From positions 1-32,932 of the forward strand of contig DUFF01000085.1 in NCBI GenBank assembly GCA_011174815.1: 32,932 bases of DNA, written 5' to 3'. Numbering within the stretch: position 1 is the stretch's first letter; every line of letters starts with the position of its first letter. Shown here piece by piece: positions 742-13,489 of the stretch. A model generated the notes under the pieces. It ran no database searches. It was not told the origin of the DNA and saw only the letters and a program-made list of their open reading frames with translations. The position numbers and the translations under genes were made by a program. Origin of the DNA: Dehalococcoidia bacterium. GTDB lineage: Bacteria; Chloroflexota; Dehalococcoidia; Dehalococcoidales; RBG-16-60-22.

Positions 742-894
742 ATGGGGAGACGAGATTACCGACACAGAGAGCCAAAGAAGCAGAAAAAGGATGCCAAGAA
801 AATAGCGCCGGTCAGTATCATACAGTCACCGGTGCAGGTAGAAGTAGTCAAGAAGGGGAAAAAGAAACGGGAAGAAGTGGAGGAGGAAGAGTAG
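742..894 (+). CDS. Small Lys/Glu-rich basic-acidic protein (50 aa), unknown function
   Basis: This short ORF is absent from the ORF track. It starts at ATG 742 (MGRRDYRHREPKKQKKDAKK...) and ends with an acidic tail (REEVEEEE) before TAG 892-894. An AGAGGG sequence lies 7 bases before the ATG. The first half is strongly basic, the middle has a short hydrophobic/Val stretch (VSIIQSPVQVEVV), and the end alternates Lys and Glu, so it is probably disordered and could bind nucleic acid or ribosomes. That last point is inference only. It resembles small basic proteins I recall from Dehalococcoidia genomes, but I cannot verify this. Its final codons carry the AGGAGG that probably serves the next gene, and its stop overlaps the presumed start of that gene, so the two are likely translationally coupled. 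Confidence 0.6.
   Translation: MGRRDYRHREPKKQKKDAKKIAPVSIIQSPVQVEVVKKGKKKREEVEEEE
881..886 (+). promoter_or_regulatory. Shine-Dalgarno AGGAGG for the radical SAM gene
   Basis: A perfect AGGAGG lies inside the end of the small upstream ORF. It is 4 bases before GTA 891 and 7 bases before GCC 894, exactly where the conserved N-terminus of the radical SAM protein begins. It supports translation starting near 891 even though no ATG, GTG or TTG is in frame there. Confidence 0.55.
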
Positions 895-1823
895 CCGCTT
901 ATCAGCACCTTTACCGTGCCGGGGAACTCAGGGCCAGGGTAGAAAAGGCTTGGTCACTTCTTGCCCGGTGTCATCTCTGCGCCCGCAAATGCGGGGTCAA
1001 TCGCCTGAACGGTGAAAGCGGACAGTGCCGGACGACAGATAAAGCCATTGTGTCCAGCTTCGGGCCGCATTTCGGGGAAGAGGCACCTCTGGTGGGCAGG
1101 CATGGCTCAGGAACCATATTCTTCGCCTACTGCAATCTGCATTGCGTATTCTGTCAGAATTACAGTATCAGCCAGCTTGGCGAGGGCAGTACTGTGGACA
1201 GTACTGAGCTGGCGGGTATGATGCTTTCCCTGCAGACAAAAGGCTGTCATAACATCAATCTGGTGAGCCCAACGCACGCAGTGCCATTTGTTCTGGAGGC
1301 ACTCGAGATAGCGGCAGGCAAGGGGCTGCAGCTGCCCATCGTTTACAATACCGGCGGCTATGACTCCCTCGAGGCGTTGGAGCTGCTGGACGGCATAGTT
1401 GATATCTACATGCCGGATATGAAGTACTCCGAGGCAAAAATCGGCGAGAAATTCTCCGATGCCAAAGGGTATCCTCAGGTAAACCGGGCGGCGGTTAAGG
1501 AGATGCACCGCCAGGTGGGAGATTTGCAATTAGATGAGTCAGGCGTGGCCATGCGGGGGCTGCTGGTACGTCACCTCGTCCTGCCCCATGGACTGGCCGG
1601 AACCGAGGGCGTGATGAAGTTCCTGTCGGAGGAAGTTTCCACTGATACCTACCTGAATGTCATGGCTCAGTATCACCCCTGCTACCAGGCTTTTGATTAT
1701 CCACAGTTATCACGACCGATAACCGGAGAGGAGTTCTCGGCGGCGCTGGAACTGGCCCGGCGCTACGGCCTGCATCGCCTTGATGAACGCGTTTCCCTTC
1801 CATTGCGACTCATTCACTGGTAG
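891..1823 (+). CDS. Radical SAM protein, PflA/PflX-like, with no standard start codon
   Basis: The protein is a 4Fe-4S/S-adenosylmethionine radical enzyme of the group often annotated as pyruvate formate-lyase activating enzyme-like; the true substrate is unknown. The radical SAM motif CNLHCVFC (CxxxCxxC) is clear. The ORF track begins at GTG 1050, but the frame is open upstream to base 687 and codes for a recognisable N-terminus: AYQHLYRAGEL, then CHLCARKCGVNR and GESGQC. These extra cysteines are typical of the subfamily, so the GTG 1050 start would remove a conserved part. No ATG, GTG or TTG exists in this frame between the stop at 684 and GTG 1050. AGGAGG at 881-886 points to initiation at GTA 891 or close by. 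Possible explanations are a non-standard start, a one-base sequence error, or a frameshift from the small ORF. The start coordinate given is therefore inferred. The acylphosphatase gene follows after 15 bases. Confidence 0.85.
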   Translation, partial: VAAYQHLYRAGELRARVEKAWSLLARCHLCARKCGVNRLNGESGQCRTTDKAIVSSFGPHFGEEAPLVGRHGSGTIFFAYCNLHCVFCQNYSISQLGEGSTVDSTELAGMMLSLQTKGCHNINLVSPTHAVPFVLEALEIAAGKGLQLPIVYNTGGYDSLEALELLDGIVDIYMPDMKYSEAKIGEKFSDAKGYPQVNRAAVKEMHRQVGDLQLDESGVAMRGLLVRHLVLPHGLAGTEGVMKFLSEEVSTDTYLNVMAQYHPCYQAFDYPQLSRPITGEEFSAALELARRYGLHRLDERVSLPLRLIHW

Positions 1824-9132: not shown

Positions 9133-9759
9133 TCATCGGTTTACCTCTCTGACAATTTTATCCAGTACCGGAGTTATGTCACGGGAGGTATCAACGGCAA
9201 AATGGTTGCGACCGATTTTCTGCACCGAGGGTTTCATCTTTTGAAAAACCGCCCAGTCAGCTTCAGAGTGGTCTTCCTCCGAGGCGGGGCCTTCGGCGCG
9301 ATTTCTCAGTCTTTCCTGCACCACTTCGGATGGTGCTTCCACACGCACCAAAATCAGCTTGGCATTCAGCCGGTCAGCAATGTGATACAGGTGTTCGCGG
9401 TTCCGTTCCGAGAGGTTGGTGGCATCCAGAGCAATGGGTATTCCCCTCCTGAGTAGCTGCTCAATGAGATGGTGGATGGCCTGGAAAAGGCGGGCGCTTT
9501 CCGCTGCGCTGTAAGCAGGGGATGGGAAAAGCGCTTTGCGCATGGCGTCGCTTTCCAGAATGATAAGCGGAATTCTCTCCGCCAGGCGGCGGCAGAAGTA
9601 TGATTTGCCGGTCCCGGGCAGGCCGCTGACTACGATAAAGGCTGGCCTGACCACAGGCTCCGGGAGCTGCCCCAGACTTTCCAGAAGCTGCTGCTTGTCA
9701 CTGATAACCTGCGTCCCGGTCACATCCTGATTATAGAACGTTTTGCACGATTGCGCCAA
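9133..9759 (-). CDS. P-loop kinase-like ATPase (AAA_33/zeta-toxin-like fold)
   Basis: The protein belongs to the P-loop kinase-like ATPases. Walker A is GLPGTGKS around residues 46-53. ESDAMRKALFP near 70 and LDATNLSERNREHL near 111 match the pattern of small-molecule or RNA kinases in this superfamily, and RLRNRAEGP may be the lid region. The substrate cannot be told from sequence. The start is uncertain: the track uses TTG 9759, five bases after the degV stop and without a Shine-Dalgarno; a GTG at 9723 is also in frame. A TTGGCG-18-TATAAT arrangement overlaps the first codons, hinting at an internal promoter and a later start. There is no antitoxin-like partner, so a toxin role is unlikely. 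Confidence 0.78.
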   Translation of the reverse strand: MAQSCKTFYNQDVTGTQVISDKQQLLESLGQLPEPVVRPAFIVVSGLPGTGKSYFCRRLAERIPLIILESDAMRKALFPSPAYSAAESARLFQAIHHLIEQLLRRGIPIALDATNLSERNREHLYHIADRLNAKLILVRVEAPSEVVQERLRNRAEGPASEEDHSEADWAVFQKMKPSVQKIGRNHFAVDTSRDITPVLDKIVREVNR

Positions 9760-9764
9760 GTGGC

Positions 9765-10628
9765 TCAGGCGTTTTCGCTGTAAAAGGCAACGCCGAAGAG
9801 TCCGGGGCCGGTGTGGACGCCCATCACCGGCGTGAATTCGGTGATAAAGAGCTCGGAGCAGTGGAACTGCGAGGCAATGTGATTTCTCAGAACCATAGCG
9901 TTATCCAGAGCGTCAGCGTGCATCACGGCAACATGGAGCGGCTTTCCTTTGACCACATTCCGCTCCATCAGCTTCAGGATACGCTTCATGGCACTTTCGA
10001 TGGTGCGCGGCAGGGCCACCGTATGTGCGCTGGCGTGATTGAGAGTAAAAACGGGCTTGATCTGTAGGATCGAGTTGACCAGCGCCGCCGCCTGAGGCAC
10101 ACGTCCGCTTTTCACTAGGTAATGTAGTGTGTCCAGCGTAGCGAACAGGTTGACGTGCTCCATTACGTTCTTGGCAATTTCCTTCACTGCCAGCAGGTTC
10201 TGGCCGGTTGCCGCTGCCCTGGCGGCAGCCAGTGTTACCAGCCCCTGCCCGGCGGCGGCCGTAGCGCAGTCAATCACTTCTATGCTCACTTCGGGCCGCG
10301 TTTTCCGCAGGATTTCTCTGGCTACCATCGCCGAGTCAAACATGGCGCTGAACTTTGATGGCTCGGTGATGCAGAGAATGCCCTCCGCTCCCTCGCTGGC
10401 TTTCTGATATGCCTCAAGGTACATCTCAGGTGGGGAGCTGGAGGTAGTCGGTGGCTTGGATGCCTGCCGGAGCCGTGCATAGAACTCAGAGGCGTTGATG
10501 TCTATGCCGTCACGGTAGGTTCTGTCATCGAAGATAAGCTGAACCGGCACGATTTCAATGTCATATCGCTCCACCTGCTCTTGAAGGATACAGGCGGTGG
10601 TGTCAGTTACCACGGCTACTTCTTTCAT
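9765..10628 (-). CDS. DegV family fatty-acid-binding protein (copy 1)
   Basis: DegV proteins bind a fatty acid and, in Gram-positive bacteria, act as FakB-type partners of a fatty acid kinase. This 287-residue protein has the family start VAVVTDTTACI, the PTTSSSPPEMYLEAY lipid-carboxylate loop near residue 58, GILCITEPSKFSAMFDSA, VIDCATAAAGQGLV near 120, and the C-terminal EFTPVMGVHTGPGLFGVAFY. Its ATG overlaps the plsY stop (ATGA), so it is translationally coupled to the acyltransferase that acylates glycerol-3-phosphate. The coupling fits a fatty-acid to phospholipid route. A second DegV lies just upstream of plsY. No fakA-like kinase gene is visible in the window. Confidence 0.93.
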   Translation of the reverse strand: MKEVAVVTDTTACILQEQVERYDIEIVPVQLIFDDRTYRDGIDINASEFYARLRQASKPPTTSSSPPEMYLEAYQKASEGAEGILCITEPSKFSAMFDSAMVAREILRKTRPEVSIEVIDCATAAAGQGLVTLAAARAAATGQNLLAVKEIAKNVMEHVNLFATLDTLHYLVKSGRVPQAAALVNSILQIKPVFTLNHASAHTVALPRTIESAMKRILKLMERNVVKGKPLHVAVMHADALDNAMVLRNHIASQFHCSELFITEFTPVMGVHTGPGLFGVAFYSENA

Positions 10629-11260
10629 TTACTTTTCCTGGCCTGCCACAAGTGGTACTCCCGATCGATGATAAGCTTTTTTCTATCTCCGATGTGCGTC
10701 ATGGCCGCTATGATGCTCGGCATCGCCCTGACACAGAGGAAAAGAAATATGGCTATCGAGTAGACGATAAGCATCCACGAACCGTTCATCTGCCAGATGA
10801 TTACAGGCAATACCATCAGCCCGATGACCACCGCCAGCCTGACGTTGCTGGTGATGACGATGAGGACCACCGTGAGGGCAATGCTGATGGCCGTCTCCAG
10901 CGGAGCCAGTGCCAGTAGAACGCCGATGGTAGTTGCCGCTCCCTTACCCCCTTTGAACTTCAGGAATACCGGCCAGTTATGTCCTACCACGGCAGCCAAG
11001 CCGGCACCGAAGACCAGTATCAGCGGTACGTCCAGCCAGAGGGCGACAAGCACGGCAAGCGACCCTTTACCGGCATCAGCTATCAGCACCAGAAGCCCGG
11101 GCACCAGCCCTATTTCTCGGGCGGTATTCAATGCCCCTATATTGCCGCCGCCTACCTGCCGGATATCGACCCCCTTGAACAGTCGCCCGGCGATATAGGC
11201 GAATGGAATGGAGCCAAGCAGGTAGGCAATAACTATGGCTATGGCAGCATTTACTGCCAT
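10625..11260 (-). CDS. plsY: Glycerol-3-phosphate acyltransferase PlsY (acyl-phosphate dependent)
   Basis: An integral membrane enzyme that transfers an acyl group from acyl-phosphate to glycerol-3-phosphate, the first step of phospholipid synthesis. Length 211 residues. Motifs in order are GSIPFAYIAGRLFKGVD (residues about 17-33), the glycine-rich VGGGNIGALNTAR, and KFKGGKGAATTIGVLLAL near residue 105; the rest is membrane-spanning hydrophobic segments ending in a basic tail (QARKSK). The ATG is preceded by GGGGAGATAAGGCA. It sits between two degV genes, overlapping the second by four bases. The plsX partner that makes acyl-phosphate is not in the window. Confidence 0.95.
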   Translation of the reverse strand: MAVNAAIAIVIAYLLGSIPFAYIAGRLFKGVDIRQVGGGNIGALNTAREIGLVPGLLVLIADAGKGSLAVLVALWLDVPLILVFGAGLAAVVGHNWPVFLKFKGGKGAATTIGVLLALAPLETAISIALTVVLIVITSNVRLAVVIGLMVLPVIIWQMNGSWMLIVYSIAIFLFLCVRAMPSIIAAMTHIGDRKKLIIDREYHLWQARKSK

Positions 11261-11325: not shown

Positions 11326-12180
11326 TCAATCTTCAGCGTAAAAAGCAAGGCCCAAAGTTCCCGTACCGCAGGCGTAGCCCATCAACGGGCTGAACTCGGT
11401 CAGCCACAGCTCCGCGCATTTGAACTCGGCAGCGACCCTTTCTTTCAGCTTTTCCGCCTCTTCGGGAGCATAAGCATGCATCACGGCAACGTGGGCCACT
11501 TTGTTGCCCACTTTTTCCCGCATCACCTGCAGGATGCGGTCGATGCCCCGTTTCCTGTTTCTCACTATACCGGCGAAATGGATCGTATCGCTAACGGTGA
11601 AAATCGGCCTGATATTAAGTATGGAGCCGAACTTGGCGGCTATCTTGGGGATACGCCCGGAACGATAAACGTGCTTTATGGTATCCAGGAGGGCAATGAC
11701 ATTTACTCGCTCTCTCATTTCCAGGGCAGCGCTGATTACTTCGGGCATGTCCTTTTCTTCACGTGCGGCGTGGGCCGCCGCCAGAGCGACGAACCCCTCA
11801 GCAGGGGTAGCCGTGTGTGAGTCCACGACCTCGATTCGAGTATCTGGATGTTCGTTTTCGATGATTTCTTTGGCTTTGCGGGCGACATTATAAACGGCGC
11901 TGAGTTTGACGGAAACGGTAACGCAAACAATGTTTTTGGCAACTTGCCTGGCCTTGCTGAAAGCATTAAGGCAATCTTCGGGAGAAGAGGCTGCGGTCTT
12001 GAACGAGTCTGGGTCCCGGAGAAATAGCTCGTATGCCTCAGATGGGGTAACATCGAGCCAGTCTTTATAAAGTCTGCCTCCCGCGTAGAAATTGAGGGGT
12101 ATGATTCCGATTCCGTATTCTTCTACGAGCTCGCGGTTGAGACACGCAATACTATCCGTAACAACGGCTACCTTCTGCGT
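11326..12180 (-). CDS. DegV family fatty-acid-binding protein (copy 2), apparent ACG start
   Basis: The ORF track shows only the last 166 residues (from GTG 11826), because no ATG, GTG or TTG lies near the true N-terminus. Reading the same frame upstream gives a full-length DegV without a stop: QKVAVVTDSIACLNRELVEEY, then KTAASSPEDCLNAF, IVCVTVSVKLSAVYN, RIEVVDSHTATPAEGF, and the C-terminal EFSPLMGYACGTGTLGLAFY. Counting from ACG 12180 it has 284 residues, matching copy 1 (287). ACG 12180 occupies exactly the place where ATG is expected and is preceded by AGGAGGAGG with 8-base spacing. It either starts with ACG, carries a start-codon mutation, or contains a base error. The HAAS gene ends 19 bases upstream and plsY follows. 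Confidence 0.85.
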   Translation of the reverse strand, partial: TQKVAVVTDSIACLNRELVEEYGIGIIPLNFYAGGRLYKDWLDVTPSEAYELFLRDPDSFKTAASSPEDCLNAFSKARQVAKNIVCVTVSVKLSAVYNVARKAKEIIENEHPDTRIEVVDSHTATPAEGFVALAAAHAAREEKDMPEVISAALEMRERVNVIALLDTIKHVYRSGRIPKIAAKFGSILNIRPIFTVSDTIHFAGIVRNRKRGIDRILQVMREKVGNKVAHVAVMHAYAPEEAEKLKERVAAEFKCAELWLTEFSPLMGYACGTGTLGLAFYAED

Positions 12181-12188
12181 CGGCGGGT

Positions 12189-12197
12189 CCTCCTCCT
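12189..12197 (-). promoter_or_regulatory. Strong Shine-Dalgarno AGGAGGAGG before the ACG start of degV copy 2
   Basis: On the minus strand the sequence after the HAAS stop reads TCAGGAGGAGGACCCGCCG followed by ACG. The last AGGAGG is 8 bases from the ACG, an ideal distance. This is the main reason to place initiation at 12180. Confidence 0.75.
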
Positions 12198-12199
12198 GA

Positions 12200-13141
12200 T
12201 TAGCGGTGGGGTGGCGTAAACAATGCGTAGCGCTGCAATATTCGCTTGGTCTTCCTGAAAAACCATTCCATGAGGGGCGGAACTAGGAAAAGCCCCCACA
12301 TTACCAGGATTAGGCCAGCGAAGGTCTCGGTGCTGAGTTTTCCGCCAACAAAATAGACGACTATGGTCAGCGTCAGCAGCCCGGAAATAATCAGCAAGCC
12401 GATACGTAACCACCGCTGGCGCAGGCGAATGAAAGCGGCTATGGTCAGTGCCAGGATAAGGAAACTGACCGCAATCCAGGGAGCGAAATAGTCCATTCTC
12501 TCCAGGGTCTCGGCGGTTATCTTTGCTCCCGGCACCAGGGTTAGAAACCAGCCGATGACTATCGGCATGGGAAGCAGCATTAAAGAGCTCAACAGCCAGT
12601 CTCTCTTTGTTGTCTGGACCACAAGACAGAATATCCACCATAGAGCAAACAGGAAATAGAACGGGATGGTCAGGAGCGACCACTCCCTGGGCAAATACAG
12701 GAGAACGAGTCCGAAAGCAGCCACCGGGATAAGTGAGTAACCCAGCCATGGGAAAACCCAGGTTGGTTTGCCGTGCCACCATCCATAGATGGAAGTTCCA
12801 ACGAGAAGAACCAGGATAAAGGATAGCCAGCCAGCATGGTGCCACCAGTTAAGGGCAAACAGGGCGGAAAACAGCAGGTGCGGCAGTGCTGCCAGAAGTG
12901 CCTGCTGCCAGCTGCCCTGGCTGTGGGCTTCATAGATCTGTCTGGCGATTATTTTGGCGGAGCCTAACAATCGGAGACACGTTTTTTCCGCTTCTTCTTC
13001 GGAAAGGCCGGACTCCTTCAGTTCCTGAAGCCTGTCTTCAATATGCGTCTCCAGCTCACTGATGACCTCTTTTCCCTCAGCGAGGTCAATCCTTAAGTTG
13101 GTCCGGATGATTTCCAGGTAATGATTCAGCGCTGTTGTCAT
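12200..13141 (-). CDS. HAAS-domain (DUF1700-like) multispanning membrane protein
   Basis: Residues 1-70 form a soluble helical domain (LNHYLEIIRTNLRIDLAEG, ISELETHIEDRLQELKESG, LSEEEAEKTCLRLLGSA) typical of HAAS-type signalling domains that accompany PadR regulators. Residues about 85-300 hold a run of some eight to nine hydrophobic segments rich in Trp, ending in a basic tail (RKTKRILQRYALF). Such proteins are thought to sense envelope stress or accompany permeases; the exact role is unknown. The padR gene ends 12 bases upstream, the classical gene pair. The stop TAA lies directly before the Shine-Dalgarno of degV copy 2, so this gene may be cotranscribed with the lipid genes. Confidence 0.82.
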   Translation of the reverse strand: MTTALNHYLEIIRTNLRIDLAEGKEVISELETHIEDRLQELKESGLSEEEAEKTCLRLLGSAKIIARQIYEAHSQGSWQQALLAALPHLLFSALFALNWWHHAGWLSFILVLLVGTSIYGWWHGKPTWVFPWLGYSLIPVAAFGLVLLYLPREWSLLTIPFYFLFALWWIFCLVVQTTKRDWLLSSLMLLPMPIVIGWFLTLVPGAKITAETLERMDYFAPWIAVSFLILALTIAAFIRLRQRWLRIGLLIISGLLTLTIVVYFVGGKLSTETFAGLILVMWGLFLVPPLMEWFFRKTKRILQRYALFTPPHR

Positions 13142-13153
13142 TGCGTTGTCCGT

Positions 13154-13489
13154 TTAATCTTCTGCTGGCTGCAATATCATATTCACGGCGCTGATGAAGT
13201 CTTGCCACTGAACCCTCTCCGTGGAAAGCGTGGCGTGCCCCTTGGCCGTGATATGGTAGTATCGCCTCGGCCGGCCGTTGGGCAACATATGCCATTTACC
13301 CTCTATCAGGCCAGCATTTTCCAGACGATGAAGCGCCGGGTACAAGGTCCCTTCCTTGAATTTGAAGTAGCCTTGACTCCTTTTCTCCAGTTCCTTGATA
13401 ATCTGATACCCGTACATTGGCTGCTGCGCAAACAAGCAGAGAAGCAGGGAGTCAGAGCTTCCCTTAATAAGTTCTCGCTTCTGTACCAT
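13154..13489 (-). CDS. PadR family transcriptional regulator
   Basis: A 111-residue winged-helix repressor of the short PadR type. Family features visible are LLLCLFAQQPMYGYQIIKEL (helix-turn-helix start, residues about 16-35), FKFKEGTLYPALHRLENAGLIEGKW (recognition helix, residues about 43-67), and the wing GRPRRYYHITAKG. ATG 13489 starts the protein. It pairs with the HAAS membrane protein downstream, and such regulators commonly respond to a small ligand and repress their own operon. A strong promoter with an imperfect dyad lies 36-63 bases upstream, which fits autoregulation. The ligand is unknown. Confidence 0.95.
   Translation of the reverse strand: MVQKRELIKGSSDSLLLCLFAQQPMYGYQIIKELEKRSQGYFKFKEGTLYPALHRLENAGLIEGKWHMLPNGRPRRYYHITAKGHATLSTERVQWQDFISAVNMILQPAED

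Follow-up and report, generated by a model that had tools for sequence, protein, structure and literature searches.

A conserved ACG codon as the probable weak start of a FakB-like degV gene in a family of Dehalococcoidia

The window analyzed here is the whole 32,932-nucleotide stretch of contig DUFF01000085.1 from a Dehalococcoidia bacterium (assembly GCA_011174815.1; Chloroflexota, Dehalococcoidales, RBG-16-60-22), whose source genome (G000) is a 1.57-Mb metagenome-assembled genome (MAG) in 103 contigs, 84.55% complete. It carries a syntenic block in the order padR, HAAS protein, degV copy 2, plsY, degV copy 1, kinase and pepA, in which all neighbors of degV copy 2 start with ATG, GTG or TTG. 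The features around degV copy 2 are the following.

13154–13489, minus strand: PadR-family regulator gene, the first of the block, with ATG/GTG starts in relatives.
12200–13141, minus strand: HAAS/permease-prefix membrane protein gene, with its stop TAA at 12202–12200, 19 nt before the ACG.
12189–12197, minus strand: Shine-Dalgarno sequence AGGAGGAGG with an 8-nt spacer; GGAGG is kept in 9 of 9 ACG orthologues.
12178–12180, minus strand: very probable ACG start of degV copy 2, read from the sequence; 9 of 13 family orthologues have ACG at this codon.
11326–12180, minus strand: degV copy 2, FakB/DegV family, 284 amino acids from the ACG, matched over full length by TIGR00762 and PF02645.
11824–11826, minus strand: internal GTG (Val), the start taken by ORF callers, which would cut 118 conserved residues.
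10625–11260, minus strand: plsY, acyl-phosphate:glycerol-3-phosphate acyltransferase, with an ATG start.
9765–10628, minus strand: degV copy 1 (FakB-like), the internal control, whose canonical ATG overlaps the plsY stop.

Direct reading of the minus strand places ACG at 12180–12178, where the Met of degV copy 2 is expected. The order is AGGAGGAGG ACCCGCCG ACG CAG AAG GTA GCC GTT GTT ACG GAT AGT, with the Shine-Dalgarno at 12197–12189 and the 8-nt spacer (ACCCGCCG) leading to the ACG. The codon is followed by QKVAVVTDSIACL, and the frame stays open for 284 codons up to a TGA ending at 11326. From the preceding stop (the frame opens at 12282) down to GTG 11826, no in-frame ATG, GTG or TTG was found. 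In a sequence alignment, residue 3 of the protein pairs with residue 2 of the solved DegV and FakB1 chains (2dt8, 6nm1), which puts the expected Met on the ACG or beside it. The original prediction had reported an ACG at 12178–12180 with a Shine-Dalgarno 8 nt upstream and no ATG, GTG or TTG nearby, and every coordinate proved correct on re-reading the sequence. Its claim that the frame continues open from GTG 11826 up to the DegV N terminus also held, a full-length DegV domain being read from the ACG, as did the truncation by ORF callers of 118 residues, which follows from the coordinates ((12180-11826)/3). Elsewhere in the block, the AAA/kinase gene (9133–9723, minus strand) has TATAAT just before its GTG/ATG start, an arrangement kept in relatives, and its mRNA is probably leaderless.

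The protein read from the ACG belongs to the DegV/FakB family. It scores 229 bits against TIGR00762 (cut-off 99.7; residues 4–281 on profile positions 1–276 of 276) and 207 bits against PF02645 (cut-off 27). Against the FakB1 equivalog NF038249, it reaches 113 bits where 350 are required, and it is FakB-like only. With FakB proteins it shares the full-length DegV match, the retained RSGR arginine region, the plsY neighbor and the presence of FakA in the genome; it differs by its score below the FakB1 equivalog cut-off and by an altered GVHTGPG motif, which is intact in copy 1 and has become GYACGTGT or GYATGTGT in most relatives of the copy 2 subfamily. Judged from profiles and motifs, degV copy 2 is in a divergent FakB-like subfamily. 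The FakA-FakB-PlsY pathway forms and uses acyl-phosphate. Because FakA is present in the source genome and degV copy 2 lies beside plsY and degV copy 1, the padR-to-pepA block probably serves acyl-phosphate formation and use. Two more DegV genes directly adjoin a FakA-like gene in the same genome (G000:C23:4143-6478).

The comparison with related genomes that the original prediction had proposed recovered ACG as the prevailing codon. A close degV copy 2 orthologue was found in 13 of the 31 family genomes, the source genome included, a count that incomplete MAGs may have lowered; the other twelve proteins are 58–73% identical to that of the window. ACG occupies the start position in nine of the thirteen (G000, G006, G021, G029, G020, G015, G007, G014 and G028), spread over eight genera of the family, and ATG occupies it in four (G009, G030, G012 and G017), of which the G009 copy contains an in-frame TGA. 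No close orthologue was found in the genus mates G001–G005, so degV copy 2 is either dispensable or sometimes unassembled. An order-level survey of 156 genomes yielded 59 with a match at E < 1e-85, and the remaining relatives start mostly with ATG, GTG or TTG. Five of them have CTG (four sequences) or ATC (one) behind a good Shine-Dalgarno (L064, L066, L077, L087, L058), and the gene may have acquired weak starts more than once across the order. A maximum-likelihood tree, computed with the start codon left out, puts every ACG gene inside the family clade (support 92). They do not form one unbroken clade, and the tree requires ACG and other starts to have been exchanged at least four times, a count that is blind to gain versus loss. 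Therefore, on several occasions ATG either took the place of ACG or came before it, and ACG is not under absolute selection.

The behavior of this codon in the nine ACG genes differs from that of a plain threonine codon. Between the window gene and the other ACG genes, synonymous differences are near saturation (pS 0.68–0.75) and nonsynonymous differences are few (pN 0.15–0.22), with the first 118 codons under the same purifying selection as the remainder. Among four-fold columns with an invariant amino acid, the third base is invariant in only 2 of 32, and it varies in 4 of 4 invariant internal Thr columns; the start-position ACG is the same in 9 of 9. Its surroundings are variable, with CCG, GCA, CTG, CCA, AAC, ACT and others before it and CAG, AAA, CCA, AGA, AAG and AAC after it. 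No in-frame canonical start lies upstream of the ACG in seven of the nine orthologues, and in the other two, G021 and G028, a GTG lies in frame 10 codons upstream, without a conserved Shine-Dalgarno. In every contig with both genes, the HAAS-like gene stops 0–35 nt before the degV copy 2 start; the G021 stop, a TGA, shares bases with the ACG (TGACG), and the G006 stop, a TAG, stands in the degV copy 2 frame, 12 nt before the ACG. Sequence comparison thus places a non-canonical start, conserved in relatives, at the true N terminus. Nine genomes keep ACG behind a strong ribosome-binding site, which makes it very probable that the codon is a genuine weak start maintained in evolution, as opposed to an error of sequencing.

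The Shine-Dalgarno of degV copy 2 is strong, extended and properly spaced. An anti-Shine-Dalgarno match of at least 7 nt occurs in 8 of 9 ACG genes compared to 12% of 388 control genes taken from these genomes, counts drawn from related sequences that are not independent events. By the same measure, the window gene has 6 nt, with AGGAGGAGG offering two registers, and the four ATG orthologues have 0, 6, 5 and 4 nt. A published association of non-AUG starts with stronger Shine-Dalgarno sequences runs in the same direction (PMC5622118).

Start-codon selection in the family appears otherwise ordinary. In the control with degV copy 1, rows showing ACG came from contigs without copy 1, on which the query landed on copy 2. 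A wider control sampled stretches of 13 family genomes, 1.37 Mb in total, and gave 455 gene instances with an orthologue. Of these, 25 lacked a nearby canonical start, comprising degV copy 2 (6), a radical-SAM gene (3), prfB at its programmed frameshift site, the probably leaderless kinase and, as judged by eye, apparent shadow, N-containing or broken frames. No further conserved ACG start was found among these 455 instances, in which starts are almost only canonical, and a general loss of start-codon stringency was rejected. A variant initiator tRNA reading ACG was rejected as well: with the anticodon-arm pattern GGGCTNNNAACCC, initiators in many family genomes proved to carry CAT, and the search turned up no stem-loop with CGT. 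The source MAG, being incomplete, matched neither form, and its normal initiator is assumed from relatives. IF3 is present in 26 of the 31 family genomes, that of the window included, and in the family loci read (L183–L208), its gene infC sits on a weak start, a conserved ATA followed by ATT, GTT or the like. The classical IF3 autoregulation arrangement appears to be kept, and because infC itself starts with ATA, start-codon surveillance by IF3 appears to be intact. An RNA element at the degV copy 2 start was also rejected, with no Rfam match in the window and folding of the start region no better than that of shuffled sequences (z = 0.73).

The radical-SAM-like gene at 891–1823 (plus strand), which carries the CHLCARKCGVNR motif, is likewise without an ATG, GTG or TTG start. 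Its frame opens with GTA (ATA in most close relatives) directly behind GGAGGAGGAAGA, and in seven family genomes, a small upstream ORF ends with a TAG that shares bases with this start (GTAG/ATAG). The gene is either a second weak-start gene or the product of a -1 frameshift. The frame at 687–1823 was considered as prfB and rejected, as it is the radical-SAM gene.

An ACG start has a mismatch at the middle position and is expected to be very inefficient; to our knowledge, start codons of this kind are thought nearly useless in bacteria. In the mechanism we propose, the near-perfect Shine-Dalgarno would hold ribosomes that finish the upstream membrane-protein gene or arrive directly, and termination so close by perhaps helps initiation at the ACG. 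The fMet-tRNA (CAU) would then initiate on ACG despite a C:A mismatch in the middle of the codon, inefficiently and discriminated against by IF3. The protein would be scarce compared with PlsY and DegV1, which share its operon, and its level would follow IF3 and the conditions of initiation, as with infC (AUU/AUA), sigR (GUC) and ccpN (AUA). From the comparative pattern, we infer fMet initiation at ACG, low expression, IF3 sensitivity and low dosage as a selected trait. Taken as a whole, the account of a genuine ACG start with inefficient fMet initiation, a strong Shine-Dalgarno and a scarce, possibly IF3-sensitive protein is likely to be correct.

Known attenuated starts offer partial parallels. 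The IF3 gene infC starts with AUU/AUA, its initiation is limited by IF3, and it regulates its own translation. Like degV copy 2, it has a non-canonical start behind a Shine-Dalgarno that is conserved across relatives; in contrast, its mismatch lies at the third codon position and not the middle one, and it encodes an autoregulated translation factor, which degV copy 2 does not. The Streptomyces sigR gene has a GUC start with the ribosome-binding site AGGAGGTG and proven IF3 repression (PMC5472188). It shares with degV copy 2 a highly unusual start misannotated by gene callers, an extensive ribosome-binding site (AGGAGGTG versus AGGAGGAGG), and conservation of the start in one lineage with canonical starts outside; it differs in combining GUC with a sigma factor under demonstrated IF3 repression, whereas degV copy 2 combines ACG with a FakB-like protein and a putative IF3 role. 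Staphylococcus ccpN (AUA) and cvfC1 (AUU) give about 10% of the AUG yield in reporters, and ccpN is medium-dependent (PMC13009471). These genes also pair a conserved weak start with an extended Shine-Dalgarno, but theirs are third-position mismatches mapped by ribosome profiling, and the degV copy 2 start is placed by comparison of genomes.

The most serious rival, more so than editing, is that selection on the gene is relaxed and its weak ACG start is tolerated and drifting, not maintained as an attenuator. The patchy occurrence of close orthologues (13 of 31 genomes, though the MAGs are incomplete), the in-frame TGA of the G009 copy and the CTG or ATC at the start position of some order-level relatives fit such drift. 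However, the protein is under strong purifying selection, ACG is unvarying among nine lineages despite near-saturated synonymous sites, and an unusually strong Shine-Dalgarno is kept together with it, so we regard drift as unlikely. Less probable still is a special mechanism in which ACG is a dedicated regulated start, read through C-to-U editing or mismatch-tolerant initiation, that turns degV copy 2 on conditionally. Initiation elsewhere, at an upstream GTG in some genomes, at a codon near the ACG or at GTG 11826, is very improbable. It would suit the upstream GTG of G021 and G028 and the choice of GTG 11826 by automated ORF calling, but seven of the nine genes have no upstream canonical start, the codons flanking ACG vary while ACG is constant, codon 4 (GTA) would be 17 nt from the Shine-Dalgarno, and the first 118 codons are equally constrained and encode the N-terminal portion of the DegV fold.

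We know of no bacterial precedent for editing of ACG to AUG. In land-plant plastids, the ACG starts of ndhD, psbL and rpl2 are made functional by C-to-U RNA editing (PMC9845219). The same conversion to AUG in the degV copy 2 mRNA would add a second layer of control, and plastid editing leaves just this pattern, a genomic ACG conserved at the start position, where AUG belongs, and ATG there in certain relatives; nevertheless, such editing has not been observed in bacteria (PMC9845219), and only the Shine-Dalgarno is conserved around the ACG of degV copy 2, so that, unlike in plastids, no recognition sequence is apparent, and we give this reading even slighter odds than initiation elsewhere. A single-base error of ATG, one transition away, in a fragmented metagenome assembly was rejected as next to impossible, as nine separate genomes, diverged in their DNA, share ACG at this codon. 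Thus, of the three options in the original prediction, the real non-AUG start gains strong support from these nine genomes and the base error falls by them; a start mutation lowering expression is probable in its effect, but not as a recent accident of one genome, the codon being old, spread over eight genera and coupled to a strong Shine-Dalgarno.

Attenuation by a non-canonical start is already known, and what appears to be new is a conserved bacterial ACG with a middle-position mismatch. Among the phrase matches listed from open-access full texts, ACG starts are plastid, plant-mitochondrial, viral or other eukaryotic, and no naturally conserved bacterial ACG start appears. ORF callers systematically truncate such genes, by 118 residues in the case of degV copy 2. 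The family provides nine natural ACG test constructs together with four natural ATG counterparts. If the proposed reading of a maintained weak start is true, evolution uses even ACG as a stable dial for protein dosage, and in this family, one of two FakB-like proteins is apparently kept scarce beside PlsY.
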